Source: Limnobacter parvus
GTDB lineage: Bacteria; Pseudomonadota; Gammaproteobacteria; Burkholderiales; Burkholderiaceae_B
Reading direction: 5' to 3'
Length of the DNA: 64,000 nt
Assembly (NCBI RefSeq): GCF_024623725.1
Contig: NZ_JANKHG010000018.1
Coordinates: 370,602-434,601, forward strand
In this document: piece by piece, positions 2,217 through 17,600 of the stretch
Layout: every line of letters begins with the position of its first letter
Numbering within the stretch: position 1 is the stretch's first letter
The notes under the pieces: model-generated
What the model saw: only the letters and a program-made list of their open reading frames with translations
What the model was told of the DNA's origin: nothing
The model's database searches: none
Position numbers and translations under genes: made by a program

Positions 2217-2239
2217 AAGGGGGTTAATCCCCCTTTTTT
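2217..2239 (+). terminator. Rho-independent terminator after the acylase gene
   Basis: Five G (2219-2223), a TTAAT loop and five C (2229-2233), extended by an AA/TT pair and followed by six T (2234-2239). It sits 47 nt after the acylase stop and closes that transcription unit before the binding-protein gene. Confidence 0.9.
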
Positions 2240-2304
2240 CATCGATCAAACCGACTAAAAACCCCGCATCTTGTTTGAATCCAAACCTACACCTGGCTCA
2301 TTCA

Positions 2305-3318
2305 ATGTTTAATTTATTGCCCGGAACCATCGGCGACTCCCGTTGGTTCAAAAGTGGTGTCGCTGCCCTGCTTTTTGTGGCGGTCGCCTTTTGCCAAACT
2401 GCATGGGCCGACAACCCACGCATTGCAGTGTCGAAGTCGCCGTTGTCCTTGCCCTTCTTTGTTGCGAAAGAAAAAAACCTGTTCGCAAAACACGGGGTTG
2501 AACCCCAGCTGATTGAATGCATTGGTGGTAACCGCTGCGTGCAGGAACTGGTCGACGGCAAAGTGGACATGGCCACTTCATCTGAACTGCCATTCATGTT
2601 TACAGTGCATGCGGGCAAGCCGATAACCTTGATCACCACTTTCGTAAACAACAAAGACGACATGAAGTTCCTTGTGCGCAAAAGTGCGGCACCGGAAGGG
2701 ATCAAATCCCTGGCAGGAAAGCGCGTGGGCTATGTGTCCAAATCGGCGTCGCATTATTTCATGGATGTATTTTTGCTTTACCACGGTCTTGATCCCCGAA
2801 CTGTTGTTCCCGTGGCCTTGCGGGCCGATGAGTTGGCTGGAGCATTGGCCAAGGGTGAAGTCGATGCCATTTCAGTTTGGGAGCCCTGGGGGCAGGTGGC
2901 CCTTGAAATGGGTGGGTCAAAAGTAGAGGTGGTTTCTTCGCCAAGGCTTTACAACCAAACCTTTAACTTGTTGGTGGGCAATGAATACAGGCTTGCTGAA
3001 TCAAAACGTATTTCCGCGGTGTTGATGGCGCTTGAAGACGCCATTCAATTGATCAAGAAAAATCCTGACGAGGCCATGCGCACCATGGCACGAGTGACGG
3101 GCGTAAGCATGGCAATTGTCAAAGCAGCCTGGCCCACTTACCGTTTCGAACTTTCGCTCCAGCAATCCTTGCTGACCACCATACAAGGTCAGGCACGCTG
3201 GGCCAAGCGTGAAGGTCATGTTGCTGCCACGAATACGGATCCTGAATTTCTGGATTTTATTGATTCCAGTTTGTTGAGAAAACTTAACCCTTCCGCTGTA
3301 GATTTTGTGTATCGATGA
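2305..3318 (+). CDS. ABC-type periplasmic substrate-binding protein (NMT1/SsuA-like)
   Basis: Periplasmic binding protein of the NMT1/THI5-like (nitrate, sulfonate, taurine, thiamine-precursor) family. After a short N-terminal tail there is a hydrophobic signal segment ending near AWADNP, then the family pattern SLPFFVAKEKNLFAKHGVEP and a conserved VDMATSSELP loop. I chose ATG 2305; a TTG at 2275 is also in frame, and neither has a clear ribosome-binding site. No permease or ATPase gene is adjacent. Instead the stop overlaps the ATG of a hybrid histidine kinase by 4 nt (ATGA), so the protein is more likely a ligand-sensing partner of that kinase than a transport component (inference). The ligand is unknown. 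Confidence 0.85.
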   Translation: MFNLLPGTIGDSRWFKSGVAALLFVAVAFCQTAWADNPRIAVSKSPLSLPFFVAKEKNLFAKHGVEPQLIECIGGNRCVQELVDGKVDMATSSELPFMFTVHAGKPITLITTFVNNKDDMKFLVRKSAAPEGIKSLAGKRVGYVSKSASHYFMDVFLLYHGLDPRTVVPVALRADELAGALAKGEVDAISVWEPWGQVALEMGGSKVEVVSSPRLYNQTFNLLVGNEYRLAESKRISAVLMALEDAIQLIKKNPDEAMRTMARVTGVSMAIVKAAWPTYRFELSLQQSLLTTIQGQARWAKREGHVAATNTDPEFLDFIDSSLLRKLNPSAVDFVYR

Positions 3319-6041
3319 AAACGTCGCTTCGATTAAAACAAGGAGTGATGATTGCCTTGGCGGTGTTGGTCGTTCTGGTTGTGCTGGGCATTGGTTCTGT
3401 ATTGTTGATCAATGATCAGCGCCAGGGTGCACTTGAACAGAGTGAAGCAGCCCGCCAGGTGTCGCGGCTTTCAACCCGAATGTTGGTGCTGACACACACT
3501 GTGTCGATGCACAGCAGTGAAAGCAATCTGCGCCAATGGTGGGGGGTGCATCAATCAATCAACAGCCAGCTTGAGCAACTTCAGTTCTCGGATGAACAAA
3601 CGGACTTGCCGGCAAGGCTGGACGAAAGGCTAAGTGACCTGGCAGTTCTGTTTAGCGGCTATTCGCACATGGTTGCATCTCAACAGGCCTCGTTGGATCA
3701 AAGGCGAAGCGATGTGCTGGTCGACCGCTTGATTTCCGAGGCCGAGCAAGTTGCCGAAATCAGTTACAAGATTGCTGATTCAGCCATAGCAAAGCAAGAA
3801 CAGTTAACCATCCAACGCAAGACAATTGTTTCAACTTTTGCTGTGTTGTTCGCAGTCAATTCCATTTTTTTATTGATCTTGATTCGATTCCGAGTAGTCA
3901 AACCACTTGAGCGAATTGAAAGCGTGGCCAACGAAATGAGGCATGGAAACCTGGCCGCGCGTTGTGGCTTGCCTGAAGGTGATGAGTTGGGTGATGTGGC
4001 CGCTGCGCTGGACAATTTGGCGATTGAGTTAAATGATCGCCTGGAAGACTTGACCGCAACCACACACCTTTTGGAGGTGGCTGGCCGCATGTGCGGTGTG
4101 GGCGCCTGGACATTGAATTGTGCCAACCAGGAGTTGCGATGGTCCAAACAGGTTTTTGATATTGTCGAGGCTGATTTTTCAACCCAGCCCACCTTGTTGG
4201 ATGCCATTGCCATGTACCCCGGTGACTACGCACTGAAGTTGTCCAACGCGTTGAGGCAAGCCACAGAAAACGGAAACAATGTTGATCTTGAGTTGCAACT
4301 TTGCACTTACAAAGGCAAGTTGATCTGGGTGCATGTTTTCGGCGAGGTGATTTTTCAGGGCGAAGGAAAACACCGCGAACCTCGAATTATTCTGGGCGCT
4401 TTTCAAGACATCACTGAGCGCAAACGCGTTGAAGAGGAGAATCGACAGGCCAAAGAAGTTGCAGAGTCTGCAAGCAAGGCCAAAGGCGAGTTTCTTTCCA
4501 ATATCAGCCACGAGATCAGAACGCCATTGAATGCAGTGGTGGGGCTTGCTTACATTCTGAAGCAAAGCAAACTGGATTCGTCGCAGCTGGATTTTGTCGA
4601 AAAGCTTGAGAACGCAGGGCGTGGATTGATTGAGCTGGTCAGCGGTGTTCTGGATGTGTCGAAAATCGAAGCCGGCGCCATGGAACTGGAAAAACGTCCG
4701 TTCTCAGCCCGGGGTCTGCTTGATTCCCTGGCTGATTTAATGACCAGTGCCGTGGCCGACAAGCCCATCGAGTTTGTGGTGTCGGTGGAACCCAATGTGC
4801 CCGACAAACTGATCGGCGACGAGACCAAATTGCGGCAAGTGTTGGTCAACCTGGCTGGCAACGCCATCAAATTCACCGAGAATGGTTATGTGAAAGTCGG
4901 CGTTACTCTGGATCAGTTGGACACCAATCATTGCGTGCTTCGTTTCGTGATTCAAGACACGGGTTTGGGCATGGACCCAGCGGCCATGAAACGTCTGTTT
5001 CAGTCGTTTTCGCAGGCTGATTCGTCTATTTCCCGTCGGTTTGGTGGTTCTGGTGTCGGTCTGGCGCTCAGCCAAAAGCTTGTGGAATTAATGGGCAGCA
5101 CTATTTCAGCGGTAAGTGCACCCGCGCAAGGCAGCTTGTTTGCTTTCTCGCTGGTGTTAACGCTCGATCAACAAGCCTCTCAAACACCGCCGCGTTGTGA
5201 ATTGCCTTTTGATGTGGTGGTGGTGGATGAATTTCGGCATCAGCTTGAAAGCCTTAGCCACATGACAGAATGGTGCGGTATTCAATCCAAGGTAATCAGC
5301 GATGCGCAACAGGCCTTAAACATTCCTGCCAGTGAACGCCCGCATTTGTACATTGTGAACAACCACTTGCACAACACCACCGGGCTTGAAGTGGCGCAGA
5401 AAATCAAAAAGCTTCATGGCTCAGCGGGCGCGAAAGTGATTTTGATGGCCAGGCCCAAAGAAGTGGAGCACATACACGAATCACTGGGCAAAGGTCACTT
5501 TGATGCAGTGTTAATGAAGCCAGTTTCTTTTTCGGCTCTGAAAAACACACTCGAAGATCTTGCCACCAATTCCGACAGCAATACGCATTTTAATGAGCGC
5601 CACTTGCACCAAAATGATTTGGTGTTTTTGTCAGGACTTACCGTGCTTGCTGTCGATGATCAAAAACTGAACTTGCTTATCTTAAGAAAAATTCTTGAAA
5701 CCCACGGCGCACGCGTCATTCTGGCTGAAACAGGCCAGGCGGCAATTGCCGTGTTGTCGCAGCCGGACCGGTCCGATGTGAATGTGTGTTTGATGGACGT
5801 GCAAATGCCCGACATGGATGGCCTTGAAACCTGTGAATACATTCGCCACAACTTGGGCATGAAAGACCTGCCAATTTTGGCGTTGACCGCAGGTGTCATG
5901 TCTGCAGACCATCAAGCGGCACTTGATGCCGGCATGAACGAAGTCCTGACCAAACCGCTTCTGATTGACAAGGTTCTGGACTCACTACGGCGTTGGGGTT
6001 CTAATATGAACGTTGGGTCGATTAACCAAAATGTTTCCTGA
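3315..6041 (+). CDS. Hybrid sensor histidine kinase (HAMP-PAS-HisKA-HATPase-pseudoREC-REC)
   Basis: 908-residue membrane hybrid kinase. Membrane segments lie near residues 11-33 and 170-191 and enclose a periplasmic helical region. HAMP follows (about 192-245), then PAS (255-372), and HisKA with SNISHEIRTPLN, phospho-His 399. HATPase N-box is near 500-545 and the G-boxes include GSGVGLAL. The first receiver-like domain (about 632-750) lacks the acceptor Asp: the beta-3 end reads LYIVNN, Asn 682. The second receiver (775-895) is intact, with LMDVQMPDMDG and Asp 828. The gene is translationally coupled to the binding protein upstream and sits 18 nt before a second hybrid kinase, so the three probably form one operon. 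The most plausible signal path is binding protein to periplasmic domain (inference). Confidence 0.93.
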   Translation: MKTSLRLKQGVMIALAVLVVLVVLGIGSVLLINDQRQGALEQSEAARQVSRLSTRMLVLTHTVSMHSSESNLRQWWGVHQSINSQLEQLQFSDEQTDLPARLDERLSDLAVLFSGYSHMVASQQASLDQRRSDVLVDRLISEAEQVAEISYKIADSAIAKQEQLTIQRKTIVSTFAVLFAVNSIFLLILIRFRVVKPLERIESVANEMRHGNLAARCGLPEGDELGDVAAALDNLAIELNDRLEDLTATTHLLEVAGRMCGVGAWTLNCANQELRWSKQVFDIVEADFSTQPTLLDAIAMYPGDYALKLSNALRQATENGNNVDLELQLCTYKGKLIWVHVFGEVIFQGEGKHREPRIILGAFQDITERKRVEEENRQAKEVAESASKAKGEFLSNISHEIRTPLNAVVGLAYILKQSKLDSSQLDFVEKLENAGRGLIELVSGVLDVSKIEAGAMELEKRPFSARGLLDSLADLMTSAVADKPIEFVVSVEPNVPDKLIGDETKLRQVLVNLAGNAIKFTENGYVKVGVTLDQLDTNHCVLRFVIQDTGLGMDPAAMKRLFQSFSQADSSISRRFGGSGVGLALSQKLVELMGSTISAVSAPAQGSLFAFSLVLTLDQQASQTPPRCELPFDVVVVDEFRHQLESLSHMTEWCGIQSKVISDAQQALNIPASERPHLYIVNNHLHNTTGLEVAQKIKKLHGSAGAKVILMARPKEVEHIHESLGKGHFDAVLMKPVSFSALKNTLEDLATNSDSNTHFNERHLHQNDLVFLSGLTVLAVDDQKLNLLILRKILETHGARVILAETGQAAIAVLSQPDRSDVNVCLMDVQMPDMDGLETCEYIRHNLGMKDLPILALTAGVMSADHQAALDAGMNEVLTKPLLIDKVLDSLRRWGSNMNVGSINQNVS

Positions 6042-6059: not shown

Positions 6060-8054
6060 ATGAACAACATCAATGAATACTTGCCCCACGGATTTTGTAT
6101 AGCCTGGAATCCCCAATTGCTGGCGATGCATGTGATCTCCGACATCCTGATTGCGCTGGCCTATTTTTCGATTCCAATTGGCATTGTTTATGTGGCCAGG
6201 AAAAGAGCCGAAGCGGTTTTTCAGCCCATCTATTATTTGTTCGCCGGTTTTATTCTGGCCTGTGGTGTTACACATGTTATGGGCATTTTGACCTTGTGGA
6301 TACCGCTGTATTACGCCCAAGGAATTGCCAAGATTGCCACGGCAGCGGTGTCTGTGGCCACTGCCTTGTATTTGCTGCCTAAATTGAAATACATCATGGC
6401 GCTGCCCAACCTCGAAAAACTCAGCCAGATGAACAAGGACTTGAGCGTTGAAATTGAATCGAGAAAGCGCAGCGAAGCGTCCTTGATTGAATCGCAAGCG
6501 CTGGCCGTGCAAGCGCAAAAAATACAGTCCGTATTTTTGGCCAACATGAGCCATGAAATTCGAACACCGATGAACGGTGTGATGGGTGCCATCGATTTGT
6601 TGCTGGACACCAAACTGGACGAAGCCCAACAACGTTTGGCCATGGCCTCGAGAAAAAGCGCCAAGTCTTTGCTGATTTTGCTCAATGACATCCTGGATCT
6701 TTCCAAAGTGGAAAGTGGCAAGATGACTCTGCGTGAAGAAGATGTGCAACTGGTTTCCATTTTTGAAGAAGTGGCTTCTGCCCTGTCGTTCGAAGCTGAG
6801 CAAAAAAGGCTTGAGCTGGTGTGCCCTGCAAACAACTTGGTTTTGACCGATTACCGCGCCGATTCAGTTAGATTGCGACAAATTTTGCTGAACCTTGTGG
6901 GCAACGCAATCAAGTTCACAGAATCTGGATACGTGTTGGTAAGCTGTCGTGAAATTGGCCGCAGCGACAAAGAATCGGTGTTGGAATTCAGAATAAAAGA
7001 TTCCGGGATTGGCATTCCGCCTGCCGAAAAAAGTAACTTGTTCAAACGGTTCAAGCAACTGGATAATTCCAGCACGCGCCGCGCCCAAGGCAGTGGTTTG
7101 GGCTTGGCCATCGTGAAAGAACTGGTCGATTTGATGGGCGGAAGCATTCGTGTTTCAAGCGATCTGGGCAAGGGTACAGAATTTGTATTTACCCTGAATT
7201 TGAAATTCGCTTCAGTGCAAATGCCATGCGCATGGCACCAGGCGCAATCCGGTTTCGAAGGCACTGTGTATTTGGCGATTGATGGCAAACACACCGCCAC
7301 TTACTTGGCTGAGTTGTTCACGCGGTGGGGCTTTAAAAATCGCATACTCGATTCATCGACGGTGTGCGATTTGTCTGCCAGTCTGTTCAAGCCGGGCGAT
7401 GTGCTTTTGGTCAGCTCACGCTTAATGCATGAACTACCTTCCTGGGGTCAAAGCATTGAACAGTTGGTTGCGCAGGCTGGTGTCAAGATTGGTTTGTTGG
7501 TCACGGAATCTGAGCAAACCCAATCGGGTTCAATGCCATGGAATAAGGCAGACCGCGTCATTATGACGCCGCTGGTACAGGCCGATGTACGCAAGGCATT
7601 GGATGCCTTGACCAGTAAAGTGGAAAGTTCTCCCGGTTTGACGGCCCAAGCGCTTAGCGAGGACCGCCCAAAGTACCGCGGCCGCGTGCTGGTGGTTGAA
7701 GATTCCACAATGAACCAGATGGTCATTTGCAAGGTGTTGGAGTCCATGAGCCTTGAAGTTGTGGTGGCCAACAATGGGCAGGAGTGCATTGATTTGCTGC
7801 GGGTTGAAAAATTCGATGTGGTGTTGATGGACGGGCAAATGCCGGTGATGGATGGCTACGAAGCCACTCGAATTATTCGAAGCGGCGCTTTCGAAGGCAT
7901 CAATTCCGACATACCGGTGATTGCATTGACCGCACATGCCATGAGCGGCGAGGATCAGCGTTGCTACGACGCGGGCATGAATGATTACTTGACCAAGCCC
8001 TTAAGTCGCGAAAAGTTGAATGCAGTGCTGGCCAAATACCTGGCAATAGAATAG
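6060..8054 (+). CDS. Hybrid histidine kinase with ETR1-type ethylene-binding transmembrane domain
   Basis: 664-residue hybrid kinase whose N-terminus matches the three-helix ethylene-binding domain of plant ETR1 and cyanobacterial SynEtr1. Seen directly: SDILIALAYFSIP (Asp28, Tyr35, Ile38, Pro39) and FILACGVTH (Ile65, Cys68, His72). These are, at a constant offset of three, the residues known as essential in ETR1 (D25, Y32, I35, P36, I62, C65, H69); Cys and His hold the copper cofactor. No GAF domain follows. A short coiled linker leads to HisKA (NMSHEIRTPMNG, His165), HATPase, a receiver-like domain without acceptor (Ser452 at the Asp position), and an intact receiver (LMDGQMPVMDG, Asp591). 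Whether the ligand is ethylene cannot be settled from sequence. Confidence 0.92.
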   Translation: MNNINEYLPHGFCIAWNPQLLAMHVISDILIALAYFSIPIGIVYVARKRAEAVFQPIYYLFAGFILACGVTHVMGILTLWIPLYYAQGIAKIATAAVSVATALYLLPKLKYIMALPNLEKLSQMNKDLSVEIESRKRSEASLIESQALAVQAQKIQSVFLANMSHEIRTPMNGVMGAIDLLLDTKLDEAQQRLAMASRKSAKSLLILLNDILDLSKVESGKMTLREEDVQLVSIFEEVASALSFEAEQKRLELVCPANNLVLTDYRADSVRLRQILLNLVGNAIKFTESGYVLVSCREIGRSDKESVLEFRIKDSGIGIPPAEKSNLFKRFKQLDNSSTRRAQGSGLGLAIVKELVDLMGGSIRVSSDLGKGTEFVFTLNLKFASVQMPCAWHQAQSGFEGTVYLAIDGKHTATYLAELFTRWGFKNRILDSSTVCDLSASLFKPGDVLLVSSRLMHELPSWGQSIEQLVAQAGVKIGLLVTESEQTQSGSMPWNKADRVIMTPLVQADVRKALDALTSKVESSPGLTAQALSEDRPKYRGRVLVVEDSTMNQMVICKVLESMSLEVVVANNGQECIDLLRVEKFDVVLMDGQMPVMDGYEATRIIRSGAFEGINSDIPVIALTAHAMSGEDQRCYDAGMNDYLTKPLSREKLNAVLAKYLAIE

Positions 8055-8073: not shown

Positions 8074-8430
8074 CTATTTTTCAGCTAGGTTTGTTAACAG
8101 CTCTTCCACGTGCAGTACGGTGTTTAGCATTTCTTGAAAGGCTTCTTTGCATTTTGCTTGATTGGCCAATTGGGCAAATGTTTCCAGGCTTTTCGCCGCA
8201 GCCATGAAGTTCAACAAACCCAGGTTGGCGCCAATGCCCTTGTGGTGGTGCGCCTTGCTGCGCAGCCAAGGGTAATCTTCGTTTTCAAGGTGAGCAATAA
8301 ACTCAGCCTGTTCGCCTTTAAAGTCATCGACCAACATCCCCAGCAATTCCACCAACAGTGCTTTGTCGTCGCACACGCGATCCAGGGTGGATTCAAGTTC
8401 AACTTCAGAAGCAAGACTACTTAAATCCAT
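8074..8430 (-). CDS. Hpt domain histidine phosphotransfer protein
   Basis: 118-residue single-domain protein that would shuttle phosphate between a hybrid-kinase receiver and a final response regulator. The Hpt signature AHHHKGIGANLG places the phospho-His at residue 61 (the first His after Ala60), with the downstream Lys, Gly and Asn conserved. It is convergent with the ETR1-like kinase gene, 19 nt apart. Neither upstream hybrid kinase carries its own Hpt domain, so this is the natural relay partner for both (inference). No output regulator is coded close by. Confidence 0.88.
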   Translation of the reverse strand: MDLSSLASEVELESTLDRVCDDKALLVELLGMLVDDFKGEQAEFIAHLENEDYPWLRSKAHHHKGIGANLGLLNFMAAAKSLETFAQLANQAKCKEAFQEMLNTVLHVEELLTNLAEK

Positions 8431-12772: not shown

Positions 12773-14059
12773 ATGAACAAAAAAACCGAACCCAGCACCG
12801 GCGAGAAAATCGAAGGCACCTTGAACTTCGTGGGCGACTCCATTGCACAGGCTGCCACTCGGGTGCATGAACTTCACCGCGCCATCAGCGACATGCCGTT
12901 TAAAGCTGTGGGCGCGGCCACCTTGAATGCCAGCAAGCCGGTTGAATCCATTCACAACGAAATTACCGACCTGGTCTATGGCGCGGTGCGCGAAGCGGGC
13001 AAGGGTGTGTTTTCAGGCGCAGCCTGGGTGGTGCGCCAAGCCAATCAAAGTTTGGCCTCGCCACAAATTATCGATCAGGCCATGGGCGGTGAATTGATGG
13101 ACCAGGTGGACCACCTGCCCATGCCCACTGCACCGAATGCGAAAACCGACAAGCGGGTTTCTGCCATTTCCAGTGCCATCAATGGTGTGTTTGGCGACCA
13201 CTTAACCGCCACGCGCAACCCCATGCAAGTCCGCATGAATTTGTATGCGAACGGCCAGGCTTTGGCGGCAGACCAGGCCTCGCTAATGGCCCAGTTTCCC
13301 AATGCGAAAAATCATTTGATTGTTTTTGTGCATGGCCTGTGCTGTAACGAAGACAGCTGGCAGATGTATTACAACCCCAGCGAGCCCGCCACGCGCCCCT
13401 ATGGCGACAAGCTGCAAGATGAGTTTCCTGTGACCTCGATTTACCTGCGATACAACACAGGCCGCAACATCGATGCAAATGCCCGTCAGTTCAAACGCCT
13501 GTTGAACAAGCTGGTGCGCAACTGGCCAGTGGCCGTTGAAGGCATTACTTTGGTGGGCCACAGCATGGGTGGATTGGTAAGCCGAGCCGTGGTTGAAGCG
13601 CTAACTGATGACGACATTATCCTGAAACGCGCCATTCGTGACGTGGTGTGTCTGGGCTCACCCCATGCGGGTGCACCGTTGGCTCGGCTGGCTGCAGCGG
13701 GCGAACAGCTGTTTGGAAAATTTGAATTGTCCAAGCCGATTGGCAAGGTGTTGGGCGTGCGTTCAAGAGGTATTCGTGATTTGAAAGACGGGCTGGGCGC
13801 TTTGCAAGCACAGGGTGGTCAGGAAGTGATGTTTCACTTGATTGGGTCAACGATTGGCGATCACACTTCGTCCTGGCTAAACACCACGGTTGGTGATGGC
13901 CTTGTCACGCCCGATTCCGCATTGGCGGACGATACAGGCCGTGCGCAACGGGTCACCTTCGCGCAAAAGCATCACATGACCTTGCTGAACGACCCTGATG
14001 TGTTCCTTGAATTGCGCATGGTGCTGCGCCAGCACTTGCGGCAAAAACAGCTCAACTAA
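12773..14059 (+). CDS. Alpha/beta-hydrolase, lipase/PGAP1-like
   Basis: 428-residue serine hydrolase. The oxyanion strand LIVFVHGLCCNEDSW and the nucleophile elbow GHSMGG (Ser264) are clear; the C-terminal His is probably in QKHHMTLL. About 150 residues of helical sequence without a recognised domain precede the hydrolase. There is no signal peptide, so it is probably cytosolic or surface-associated by another route. The gene stands alone, with an AT-rich 115-nt leader that may hold its promoter, and ends overlapping by 4 nt the stop of a convergent hypothetical gene. Substrate (triacylglycerol, polyhydroxyalkanoate, other esters) is not determined. Confidence 0.8.
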   Translation: MNKKTEPSTGEKIEGTLNFVGDSIAQAATRVHELHRAISDMPFKAVGAATLNASKPVESIHNEITDLVYGAVREAGKGVFSGAAWVVRQANQSLASPQIIDQAMGGELMDQVDHLPMPTAPNAKTDKRVSAISSAINGVFGDHLTATRNPMQVRMNLYANGQALAADQASLMAQFPNAKNHLIVFVHGLCCNEDSWQMYYNPSEPATRPYGDKLQDEFPVTSIYLRYNTGRNIDANARQFKRLLNKLVRNWPVAVEGITLVGHSMGGLVSRAVVEALTDDDIILKRAIRDVVCLGSPHAGAPLARLAAAGEQLFGKFELSKPIGKVLGVRSRGIRDLKDGLGALQAQGGQEVMFHLIGSTIGDHTSSWLNTTVGDGLVTPDSALADDTGRAQRVTFAQKHHMTLLNDPDVFLELRMVLRQHLRQKQLN

Positions 14060-14706
14060 ATGTTGTAAGTCGAGGTTCTGCTTTCCTGTAAAAACACACG
14101 CTGTGTGGTCAATAAATAATTCACCAACAAGTCGGCGTACGTGCGTTTGAATTTCGATTCGCGCATGCCGCTTTCAACCAGGTTCAGTCCGTAATATTTC
14201 AAGGCCAAATGGGCTTGTTGGCATTCTTTGGTCCAGCAGTCCAAAGGTTCCAGAATTTGACTCACCGCATCTTGAAAACCTGTGGTGAAGTTCAGGAAGT
14301 CGGATTCATTCATGTCCTCCAGCAATTCCAACGCATTGTGCTCAGCATGCAGGTGGTGCGTATGCAGGCCCACGCGGGGGCGCGATTGGAACACTGTCAG
14401 AATTTGAAACAACAGCGGTTCAGGCAGATGAGCACTGGGCACGCCATACAACAATTGAACCCGACTTAAATCGATTTGCAACTGCATGCCAAACAGCCCT
14501 GACACATTGCGTGAACTCAAAGCCCAACAGGCACCCAGTGTCTCGAAAAACACCTCACGCTCGAACGAGTATTTTTTGTATGGGCTGCTGTGCAGAACCC
14601 GGTAGGGTGCTCGAATGGTCATGGTGAATCCAATACCTCGCCGTTGATCGTTTAATGATTGTGGGCTGACAAGGATTGAATTGGCATCGCATAGGTGAGG
14701 GTTCAC
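14056..14706 (-). CDS. Conserved hypothetical protein, soluble
   Basis: No family recognised. The 216-residue frame begins at GTG 14706, but ATG 14622 (MTIRAPYRVLH) would give 188 residues; neither has a good ribosome-binding site. The protein is mixed alpha/beta with a His-rich patch (VGLHTHHLHAEHNAL) and two Trp. There is no signal peptide or membrane segment. It lies 41 nt downstream of a hybrid histidine kinase on the same strand, so it may belong to that kinase's operon. Its ribosomal frame ends overlapping the lipase stop. Confidence 0.55.
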   Translation of the reverse strand: MNPHLCDANSILVSPQSLNDQRRGIGFTMTIRAPYRVLHSSPYKKYSFEREVFFETLGACWALSSRNVSGLFGMQLQIDLSRVQLLYGVPSAHLPEPLLFQILTVFQSRPRVGLHTHHLHAEHNALELLEDMNESDFLNFTTGFQDAVSQILEPLDCWTKECQQAHLALKYYGLNLVESGMRESKFKRTYADLLVNYLLTTQRVFLQESRTSTYNI

Positions 14707-14747: not shown

Positions 14748-17600
14748 CTAGTGGGGGGTGGTGCTCTCAGCCAGTTCAGCGTACTTCCGAACCAATGTAG
14801 GCCAAACCGTGCGGATTTGCGAATGCACCTCGCGTGCGGTTAGCGTCTGCGTGTTTAAACCCTGCTCGAATTCGCGAAAGCTGTGATGTAGGCTATCTTC
14901 ATTCAGCAGTGCCAGCAAACTGACCATGGAATGAATTTCCCGAACAAAAGCCACCTCGTCGAGTTGCTGAAGGTGTCCCAGCAGTTTGTCAGGCAAGTCC
15001 GCGCAGTGTTTTAAAAACAGTGAGGGAATGGCCGGCAATGGCGGTGGTTCAAAGTCGATGGTGGCTTGTGTGTCCAATAGGTCCATCAAAGCACCGTAGA
15101 GCACATTTGCTTCCACGGGTTTGGTAATAAAATCAGTCATGCCCAGGTCCATGCAGCGTGTGCGTGTTTCTGAAAAAGCATGGCCCGTTAAACCCAGCAA
15201 AGGCGTGTCCATCCAACGTGTTTGGTCGCGTAGCCATGCAGTGAATTGATAACCATCCATGACCGGCATTTCAAGGTCGGTAATAATCAAGTCGAAATCT
15301 GGCGCATCGTTGGTGTCCAGCAAAGTCATCGCTTGTTGTCCGTTTTCGCACAGCGTCACATTCAGCGCCACTGCTTCAAGCAAAGTGCGAATCAGCACCT
15401 GATTCACCGGGTGGTCTTCCAGCACCAACACCTTCTTGCCTTGCAAAGTCAGGCGGGCGTCTTGCTCAATGCCCCGTGATGTGGGCACGGCTATTTCACC
15501 CCATGGCGTGGTGCATATGTCTTGTGCCAGCAAAGGGTGCGGCAGGTGAATCAGGCGTTTGCTTAAATCGCTGGGCAGCAGTTGAAGCAAAGCACTGTCG
15601 GCTGCCAGTAGATCGCGATCAATGGCCACAATGCGCAATGCCGGGTTGCTCAAATGCTCAAGCAGTTCCTTGGGCAAGGGGTGGTTTGGTTCAAAGGGAT
15701 CCGACTGCAGCAGCACCCAATCAAAACTTTGTGTATCCAGTTCGCTTAGGCAGGCCCCCAGCGTACTGACCTTGGTCAGCTGCAGGCCTGTCGATTCAAG
15801 CACGGATTGCACACAATCGGCCACCTGCCCCGGCTGTTGCATCAACAGGCCAGTTTGGTAGGCCAGCGGCATGGGTTCCAGAAAAATATCGCTGTCGTAA
15901 GTCAGCGGCACGGAAAACCAAAAGCAGCTGCCTTGGCCCTGTGCACTTTCAACTGAAATTTCGCCACCCATGCGTAAAGTCAGTTCTCTCGCAATGCTTA
16001 GACCCAAACCCGTTCCACCATACACGCGGCTAATGCTGGAATCACCTTGCGAAAATTTTTGAAAAATACGGTCCAGCTGCGACTTGCTTAAACCGGGCCC
16101 GGTGTCGTGCACTTCAATTCTTAAATCAAGCAAATTGTCGCTTCGGGTTTGCAGTTTTGAAAACACCCGAATTGACCCCGCCTCAGTAAACTTCACTGCA
16201 TTGCTCAACAGGTTGCTAAGCACTTGGCGCAGGCGCGATGGGTCGCCCACCAGGCTGCGGCCCAACTGGCCTGAATAACCCGGCGCAATGTCGTTCAGCA
16301 AGACCAAATGCCGGCTGGCTGCCTGACTTTGAACCGCCAAGAAAGAATTGGCCAGTACTTCGTCCAAAGTGAATGGAATTTGTTCAAATTCCACCATACC
16401 TGCTTCGGCTTTGGAAAAGTCAAGAATGTCGTTGAGCAGGCCAAGCAGCGACTTCGCAGCGTCTTGTACTTTCAACAAATAATTGCGTTCCTGCTCGGGC
16501 AAATTCGATTTCAGGGTCAGTGCCGTCATACCCAATATCGCATTCATGGGCGTGCGAATCTCATGGCTCATGTTTGCCAGCAAATGCCCCCGGGCTTCAA
16601 CTTGAGCCTCGGCACGTTCACGGCCCATTTTGGCTTCCAGCGCTGCCAATTGTGCTTCGCGGGCTGCATCGCCCTGTTCCAGTTCACGGCGAAACGAACC
16701 CACCATCACCGCAAATCCTTTGGACAAGTTCACCATTTCCGTGACGAACTTGGGTTCAGGCAACTGCACGCTGTAATTGCCTTTGGCAATTTTCTCGCTC
16801 GCTTTGTTGAAGTCACGCAAAGGCTCAACGACGAAACGCTGCAACATCGCCAAGCCCAACAAGGCCATCAGCGTAACCAATACACCCAAATACAAATCAA
16901 AATTGGCCGTCGTTTTAATGTTGTCCGTTTGTTCTGTAATCACATCCTGAAAGCCCAATTCCACCGCACGAATCCGTCCTTGAATTTCCGCGCGAACGGC
17001 ATTGGTCATGCCCAGGTATTCTTCCGAAAAAAGCATTTGAATGGCCAGGTCGTCGCGCACCTCGGCTTCTGAAACATATCGCTTGGCAACAGGGTCGTAC
17101 AGCCCTTGTGTCAGCGCAAACACAATTTGTTCACGTTCGCGAAGTTTGCGGCTTAGCGTCAGAATACTGTCTACCGATTCCTTCAACTGGCTGCCCAGCT
17201 GTGGCGCCAGGCGCTCCGGGTTCAGCAGCCTTTCTTCAAGCGTTGGGCCCTTGGCCAAGATCAACTCAACACGATCTGTGCTGCCCGCGATCAACTTGTT
17301 CCAGTACACATTGTTCACCGGGTACTCATAAACACGTTCGCCAGCGTGGGTATCCAGTAGCTCGTAGTAGTTCACCAGGTGCTGGCTGTTTTTGCCCACG
17401 GTGTAGGCCGCCACCATGGTTTGCAGCGCATCGAATTCGGATTGAACCAGGCGCAACTCGTTGATCGCGTTCAGGCGTTCGGTCAGCAGTTCGGTTTGGG
17501 TGGTTTGCAGTTGCTCTGCGCGCTCGCCCATCCACACGTTGGACGCAAGGCCAAGCAAGGTGGCAAACAACACGAAACGGAACAGGGCTGCCAGCTTCAT
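14748..17600 (-). CDS. Hybrid histidine kinase (TM-HAMP-HisKA-HATPase-pseudoREC-REC-Hpt-like)
   Basis: 950-residue membrane hybrid kinase. Transmembrane segments lie at about 5-22 and 235-256 and flank a helical periplasmic domain. HAMP (257-310) and a coiled coil lead into HisKA with ANMSHEIRTPMNA (His346), then HATPase (N-box near 465, GTGLGLSI near 530). A receiver-like domain (580-700) reads WVLLQSDPFEP where an acceptor Asp would be expected. A full receiver follows (IITDLEMPVMDG, Asp775), then a C-terminal helical region with REIHSM (His890) resembling a degenerate Hpt. The order repeats the degenerate-then-intact receiver layout of the two kinases at 3.3-8.1 kb. Its stimulus is unknown. 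Confidence 0.92.
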   Translation of the reverse strand: MKLAALFRFVLFATLLGLASNVWMGERAEQLQTTQTELLTERLNAINELRLVQSEFDALQTMVAAYTVGKNSQHLVNYYELLDTHAGERVYEYPVNNVYWNKLIAGSTDRVELILAKGPTLEERLLNPERLAPQLGSQLKESVDSILTLSRKLREREQIVFALTQGLYDPVAKRYVSEAEVRDDLAIQMLFSEEYLGMTNAVRAEIQGRIRAVELGFQDVITEQTDNIKTTANFDLYLGVLVTLMALLGLAMLQRFVVEPLRDFNKASEKIAKGNYSVQLPEPKFVTEMVNLSKGFAVMVGSFRRELEQGDAAREAQLAALEAKMGRERAEAQVEARGHLLANMSHEIRTPMNAILGMTALTLKSNLPEQERNYLLKVQDAAKSLLGLLNDILDFSKAEAGMVEFEQIPFTLDEVLANSFLAVQSQAASRHLVLLNDIAPGYSGQLGRSLVGDPSRLRQVLSNLLSNAVKFTEAGSIRVFSKLQTRSDNLLDLRIEVHDTGPGLSKSQLDRIFQKFSQGDSSISRVYGGTGLGLSIARELTLRMGGEISVESAQGQGSCFWFSVPLTYDSDIFLEPMPLAYQTGLLMQQPGQVADCVQSVLESTGLQLTKVSTLGACLSELDTQSFDWVLLQSDPFEPNHPLPKELLEHLSNPALRIVAIDRDLLAADSALLQLLPSDLSKRLIHLPHPLLAQDICTTPWGEIAVPTSRGIEQDARLTLQGKKVLVLEDHPVNQVLIRTLLEAVALNVTLCENGQQAMTLLDTNDAPDFDLIITDLEMPVMDGYQFTAWLRDQTRWMDTPLLGLTGHAFSETRTRCMDLGMTDFITKPVEANVLYGALMDLLDTQATIDFEPPPLPAIPSLFLKHCADLPDKLLGHLQQLDEVAFVREIHSMVSLLALLNEDSLHHSFREFEQGLNTQTLTAREVHSQIRTVWPTLVRKYAELAESTTPH

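Follow-up and report, generated by a model that had tools for sequence, protein, structure and literature searches.

A predicted ethylene receptor kinase and an adjoining Hpt protein in Limnobacter parvus

Organization of the locus

The locus lies in a 64,000-nucleotide stretch of Limnobacter parvus DNA, referred to below as the window. Genes for a penicillin amidase, an NMT1-like binding protein, a hybrid kinase (HK1) and a second hybrid kinase (ETR) follow one another on the forward strand, and genes for an Hpt phosphotransfer protein and a thioesterase come after them on the reverse strand (Table 1). The binding-protein gene overlaps the start of HK1 by 4 bases, and 18 bases separate the end of HK1 from ETR, which is read the same way. 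Promoter and terminator scans of the region gave hits that were not above those of shuffled sequence, the terminator-like hits numbering 13, equal to the shuffle mean.

A first-pass annotation, made from the letters of the window, had placed ETR beside a second sensor kinase and a lone Hpt protein, and both neighbors were recovered. The window Hpt scored 24.0 bits, just below the Pfam Hpt cut-off of 24.6, and a syntenic relative in L021 scored 26.4; the protein carries HxxKG, which we take to be the Hpt histidine motif. No Hpt domain was found within HK1 by Pfam. The middle receiver of HK1 has Asn at the acceptor column, yet Pfam counts two receiver stretches in the protein. Further along the window, a 216-aa protein (14056-14706) without a Pfam match adjoins another hybrid kinase (14748-17600); over the aligned part it shares 78-90% identity with its counterparts in close relatives.

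Table 1. Positions of genes, protein domains and a candidate terminator in the window
Feature	Position	Strand	Evidence
Terminator-like hairpin between penicillin-amidase and binding-protein genes	2217..2235	+	weak; hits equal to shuffle mean
NMT1-like periplasmic binding protein	2275..3318	+	Pfam PF09084, E=1.8e-28
HK1 hybrid kinase: HAMP, weak PAS, HisKA, HATPase, pseudo-receiver, receiver	3315..6041	+	Pfam
ETR hybrid histidine kinase with N-terminal ethylene-binding domain, 664 aa	6060..8054	+	ORF (ATG start), Pfam
ETR ethylene-binding domain, residues 20-114	6117..6401	+	Pfam ETR1_N; identity to AzoEtr1 copy; structure model
ETR HisKA phospho-acceptor domain, residues 157-220, H-box SHEIRTP	6528..6719	+	Pfam
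ETR HATPase_c catalytic domain, residues 268-381	6861..7202	+	Pfam
ETR degenerate pseudo-receiver, about residues 395-530	7242..7649	+	receiver alignment; without Pfam receiver match
ETR intact receiver, residues 543-656, acceptor Asp in VVLMDGQMP	7686..8027	+	Pfam, E=7.4e-26
118-aa Hpt phosphotransfer protein (Pfam Hpt score just under the cut-off), encoded convergently to ETR; AHHHKG contains the HxxKG histidine	8074..8430	-	Pfam

By Pfam and alignment, a single ETR chain holds HisKA, HATPase and one intact receiver, the make-up of a hybrid histidine kinase. Its H-box was located by motif scan 50 residues past the end of the ethylene-binding domain, and Pfam found no GAF or PAS domain between that domain and HisKA at E<=0.001, in agreement with the proposal that the kinase is attached straight to the ethylene-binding domain without a GAF. 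Of the two receivers that had been proposed for ETR, only the carboxy-terminal one is intact; in the middle stretch, which can be aligned with receivers, Ser stands in place of the acceptor Asp and Thr in place of the conserved Lys.

The ethylene-binding domain

The Pfam profile ETR1_N (PF25487) matched ETR at E=4.4e-31 with 107.4 bits, far above the curated cut-off of 27. A profile search of the 3.18 Mb genome (25 contigs) returned ETR as the sole match, and the same search of 14 control genomes returned none. Residues D28, Y35, I38, P39, I65, C68 and H72 of ETR correspond, each at an offset of exactly +3, to D25, Y32, I35, P36, I62, C65 and H69 of ETR1. The ETR1 letters used in this comparison give the correct residue at every published number. 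When residues 1-114 of ETR were shuffled 200,000 times, five of the seven residues were reached once, and six or seven never. Members of the ETR1_N family without the seven residues do occur (e.g. DFTAVCR in L080/L081), which makes the retention of all seven in ETR meaningful.

The domain was also compared with AzoEtr1 as encoded in Azospirillum brasilense MTCC4038. This copy was identified by its MFGGVEAF start, which a cloning primer given in PMC11819568 specifies, and by the release-factor-3 gene upstream. An ungapped alignment gave 54/121 identical residues (45%; pairwise E=9e-41), a figure that refers to the MTCC4038 copy, this strain being different from those tested in PMC11819568. K91 of ETR aligns with K98 of AzoEtr1, a residue tied to output in that receptor (PMC11819568).

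A structure model built from 10 sequences, namely the window and nine viral-contig loci, had a pLDDT of 86 and a pTM of 0.73 and placed helices at residues 18-48, 55-80 and 84-114. In this model D28, Y35, I38 and P39 are carried by helix 1, and I65, C68 and H72 by helix 2, where C68 and H72 are spaced i, i+4, one turn of the helix, and so would lie on the same face. A model built from one sequence alone was of low quality (pTM 0.34), with nothing of note matching it. No solved structure matched the domain by sequence or fold (for the 10-sequence model, none at E<=0.001), and among predicted viral proteins there was one fold match at E<=0.001 (A0A8E4UZR7, 289 aa, E=7.7e-5, TM 0.75).

The profile match, the seven residues at an offset of three and the position of Cys68 and His72 four residues apart on one predicted helix each bear out the first-pass view that ETR, a bacterial hybrid kinase, carries an ethylene-binding domain like that of plant ETR1. 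Judged by its sequence, we conclude that ETR carries a full ethylene-binding domain.

Distribution of the domain in bacteria and on viral contigs

ETR1_N was found in 15/250 genomes of the family (13 above the cut-off; 3/43 genera), in 27/399 sampled genomes of the order (25 above the cut-off) and in 29/398 sampled genomes of the phylum (28 above the cut-off). Pooling the own-genome, genus, family, order and phylum searches gave 70 loci, 66 with a domain match and four with none. All seven residues are kept in 44 of the 66 domain copies, 12 of these from the genus. A motif scan of the same copies, many of whose loci end about 500 residues past the domain, found a kinase-like H-box no more than 60 residues past the domain in 15/66 (12 of them from the genus) and a GGDEF motif in 10/66, so the outputs are varied.

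These counts bear on two earlier suggestions. The absence of a GAF domain had been presented as a peculiarity of ETR, which does not hold, given the 15 copies with a nearby H-box and the description of AzoEtr1 with a PAS domain; a plasmid protein of Eleftheria terrae moreover has the same domain order, so direct coupling to a kinase without a GAF is not unique. A scan of genome contigs gave a single locus, a Treponema kinase that matches ETR over residues 119-662, outside the ethylene-binding domain. The label "plant-like" is apt for an ETR1-type domain, but because ETR1_N is a broad bacterial family it is no pointer to a plant origin.

In another genus of the same family (genome G201), L028:17702-19846 encodes a protein with the order ETR1_N-PAS-GGDEF-EAL and Met as the I38 equivalent, for which ethylene control of cyclic-di-GMP is possible.

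A scan of viral contigs yielded 11 loci with the ethylene-binding domain, L120-L122 carrying the same genes. Kinase-less domain proteins are encoded at L118:3914-4333, L119:3704-4513, L123:3821-4273, L125:3860-4375 and L132:3893-4762; Cys and His are kept in all five, and all seven residues in L118 and L119. L132 is Maribacter phage Molly_1, with the domain protein at MT732451.1 36990-37859. Molly1_65 (ETR1_N E=1.5e-16), a 289-aa "hypothetical protein" in isolated Maribacter phages, directly precedes an amidase gene, and in L125 the domain protein is followed at about 1.1 kb by a GH108 lysozyme. In the part of PMC8776804, on the Maribacter phages, that is drawn on here, the amidase is the only lysis gene listed for Molly and the word "ethylene" is absent. 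The stand-alone phage domains might have a holin-like role in lysis or might interfere with host receptors, and these copies may deserve more attention. At L120:3914-5353, and likewise in L121 and L122, the domain is joined to a PAS domain and a histidine kinase, and the L120 kinase gene overlaps a phage-type PDDEXK endonuclease gene by one base. The L120 protein is possibly a phage-borne ethylene receptor kinase.

Receptor, Hpt and HK1 within the genus

ETR1_N is present in 12/16 genomes of the genus, and two of the four genomes without it are only 65% and 85% complete. The locus was compared in 11 genomes. ETR and Hpt are both present in nine of these (the window included) and both absent from two, and neither gene occurs without the other; HK1 is likewise present at the locus in 9/11 and missing from 2/11. 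These are different pairs of genomes. G009 and G010 have the same flanks and keep HK1 and the binding protein, with ETR and Hpt both gone, and no match to ETR or Hpt was found genome-wide elsewhere in G009 (91% complete) or G010 (96% complete). In G012 and G014 the reverse holds, with ETR and Hpt kept and neither HK1 nor the binding protein at the locus. On a tree built from seven flanking proteins, G009 is the sister of G006 (0.985), G012 of G015 (1.0) and G014 of G001 (1.0), and G010 comes out as the sister of the window, though weakly supported (0.34). In 6/11 genomes (e.g. L021:10268-11275) a further NMT1-like binding protein lies between HK1 and the ETR site; the window has none there.

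Remnants in G009 and G012 show that deletion took place. G012 retains about 48 residues of the HK1 end (L017:10436-10579). G009 retains the first 38 residues of the ethylene-binding domain (L112:9521-9634) adjoining the thioesterase gene, indicating that a single deletion took most of ETR together with Hpt. One deletion running through adjacent genes requires no shared function, and the argument from joint loss is weaker for it. The argument is also limited to two absences, of which that in G010 has a weak position on the tree. What is new here is that ETR and Hpt are present or absent together at the locus while the HK1/binding-protein pair goes missing separately: HK1 is separable from ETR, and Hpt is never seen there without ETR. 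The joint presence and absence suggests a receptor-to-Hpt phosphorelay.

Searching with the Hpt protein gave matches in 10/16 genomes of the genus, namely the nine above and a weak match on another contig in G003 (E=4e-5); G012 has a second, weak match beyond its locus copy, and G002 and G013 have no match to the window Hpt genome-wide. The more distant G003 carries, within the same 20 kb as ETR, a kinase resembling HK1 (39% identity) and a counterpart of its binding protein (38%). No Hpt match was found beside the G003 receptor, which has a 180-aa neighbor without a Pfam match, and the Hpt profile matched none of seven neighbors tested across the ETR loci of G002, G003 and G013. An HK1-like kinase near ETR without an adjacent Hpt speaks for a link with the kinase.

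Compared with its eight syntenic relatives, the window ETR is 82-86% identical in the ethylene-binding domain, 72-75% in HisKA, 67-70% in the ATPase domain and 69-74% in the receiver; against G002, G003 and G013 the ethylene-binding domain is 61-64% and HisKA 65-71% identical. Between L021 and the other relatives the values are 94-100% for HisKA and 86-100% for the ethylene-binding domain. Among relatives HisKA is at least as well kept as the ethylene-binding domain in most comparisons, so the two are about equally constrained and the ethylene-binding domain is not singled out. Hpt diverges fast, the relatives being 35-43% identical to the window copy, and HxxKG is kept in 9/9 syntenic copies, window included.

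The pseudo-receiver is missing from the ETR proteins of the eight syntenic relatives (533-548 aa) and present in three more distant members of the genus, in which ETR lies elsewhere in the genome (661-760 aa). In two of these three, G003 and G013, the middle domain has Asp at the acceptor column. The middle domain of ETR thus looks like an ancestral receiver that is decaying and dispensable.

Proposed mechanism and alternatives

We propose that ETR is a bacterial ETR1-like, copper-dependent ethylene sensor that signals by phosphorelay through the adjoining Hpt to an unlinked regulator, and we put the probability of this reading at roughly two in three. By analogy with related receptors, in which copper is held by Cys and ethylene is bound (PMC11819568), ethylene would bind to Cu(I) coordinated by Cys68 and His72 within the three-helix membrane bundle, and binding would alter autophosphorylation of the directly attached kinase. 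The effect would probably be inhibition, as for ETR1, whose kinase activity is inhibited by ethylene, and for SynEtr1, for which there is indirect evidence of the same (PMC11819568). Phosphate would then pass to the carboxy-terminal receiver Asp of ETR, from there to the His of the convergent neighboring Hpt, and on to a response regulator whose gene lies elsewhere. No phosphate would be accepted by the middle pseudo-receiver, which would be dispensable. We infer each of these elements, from copper and ethylene binding through the direction of the effect and phosphotransfer to Hpt to the output, from such parallels.

A wider claim is that in this genus ETR works with an Hpt of its own as a single phosphorelay unit. 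The two would be retained or lost together, the unit could drop the pseudo-receiver, and it would carry an ethylene input to a distant regulator via Hpt. We advance this tentatively, at a little under even odds: the single deletion in G009 and the neighborhood in G003 lower its standing, and slightly that of the main proposal, and raise that of a competing arrangement, in which Hpt serves HK1, or both kinases, and ETR acts via its own receiver or another partner. HK1 is itself a hybrid kinase without a Pfam Hpt domain, encoded just ahead of ETR on the same strand; the G003 receptor has an HK1-like kinase and a similar binding protein nearby and no adjoining Hpt match, and the joint absence in G009 traces to one event. 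The arrangement nevertheless fits poorly with G012 and G014, where ETR and Hpt persist without HK1 and the binding protein at the locus, and with G009 and G010, where HK1 persists without ETR and Hpt, and we regard it as unlikely.

The input could also differ, the copper site being kept and ETR sensing copper, redox state or another small molecule in place of ethylene. The genome has no ACC deaminase above the cut-off, its weak match being of a kind also seen in 6/14 controls, and the stand-alone phage copies show that the domain can serve without any kinase. Against this, ETR keeps all seven residues needed for ethylene binding by ETR1, and its domain is 45% identical to a copy of AzoEtr1, a receptor for which ethylene binding has been published (PMC11819568), so we give this possibility a still smaller share. 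That an unrelated three-helix membrane anchor shows the seven residues by chance is negligibly probable in view of the profile match (E=4.4e-31), the pairwise match to the AzoEtr1 copy (E=9e-41) and the failure of 200,000 shuffles to exceed five of seven.

If ETR is an ethylene sensor as proposed, predicted ethylene sensing extends to a further proteobacterial genus, within the Burkholderiales. The 16S sequence matched 527 plasmid records, and the eight listed, from Cupriavidus, Caballeronia and Burkholderia, showed 91.5-92% identity over 76-77% of the query, which supports a placement at order level. The system is compact, with direct coupling of domain to kinase, no GAF or PAS between them, one intact receiver and one Hpt, and could allow ethylene control of a kinase to be measured without an intervening GAF or PAS domain. 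Species of the genus with ETR and species from which it has been deleted would serve as natural mutants for the study of bacterial ethylene use.

Comparison with known ethylene receptors

The ethylene-binding domain is predicted in many proteobacteria and cyanobacteria with a wide range of outputs (reviewed in PMC7700396), and AzoEtr1, which binds ethylene, is given as the first such receptor from a proteobacterium to be described as functional (PMC11819568). ETR resembles AzoEtr1 in its domain (45% identity to the MTCC4038 copy), the seven residues, the helix-3 Lys and a histidine kinase output, and "GAF" is absent from the main text of PMC11819568 as the domain is from ETR. AzoEtr1 differs in having a PAS domain and in that a small response regulator is encoded separately, downstream (PMC11819568), whereas in ETR no PAS was found, a receiver and a pseudo-receiver are fused to the kinase, and an Hpt gene adjoins it.

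SynEtr1 (slr1212) and GeiEtr1/2 are likewise bacterial and share the domain, the seven residues being conserved in GeiEtr1 and GeiEtr2 (PMC6682694). Unlike ETR, each has extra domains before the kinase: a cyanobacteriochrome domain between the ethylene-binding domain and the kinase in SynEtr1, a GAF in GeiEtr1, and PAS and GAF in GeiEtr2 (PMC6682694). The Eleftheria terrae protein N7L95_RS29460, annotated as "ATP-binding protein" and also from the Burkholderiales, has ETR1_N, HisKA, HATPase and one receiver with no GAF match. It differs from ETR in lying on a plasmid (NZ_CP106953.1), in its length of 586 aa, which leaves no room for a pseudo-receiver, and in having no Hpt annotated in the surrounding stretch shown.

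Arabidopsis ETR1 is a hybrid kinase with a C-terminal receiver. ETR shares with it the seven residues at the +3 offset (residues as cited in PMC11819568); it differs from ETR in that a GAF domain is present in subfamily-1 receptors of plants (PMC5285503) and the main signaling partner of plant receptors is a Ser/Thr kinase (PMC11819568). Among the matches listed in a search of open-licence literature, no title dealt with an Hpt partner of an ethylene receptor in bacteria. Bacterial ethylene receptors have already been published and ETR adds another of that sort; wired through Hpt as we propose, it would be likened to the plant cytokinin receptors and would differ from AzoEtr1 with its adjacent response regulator.
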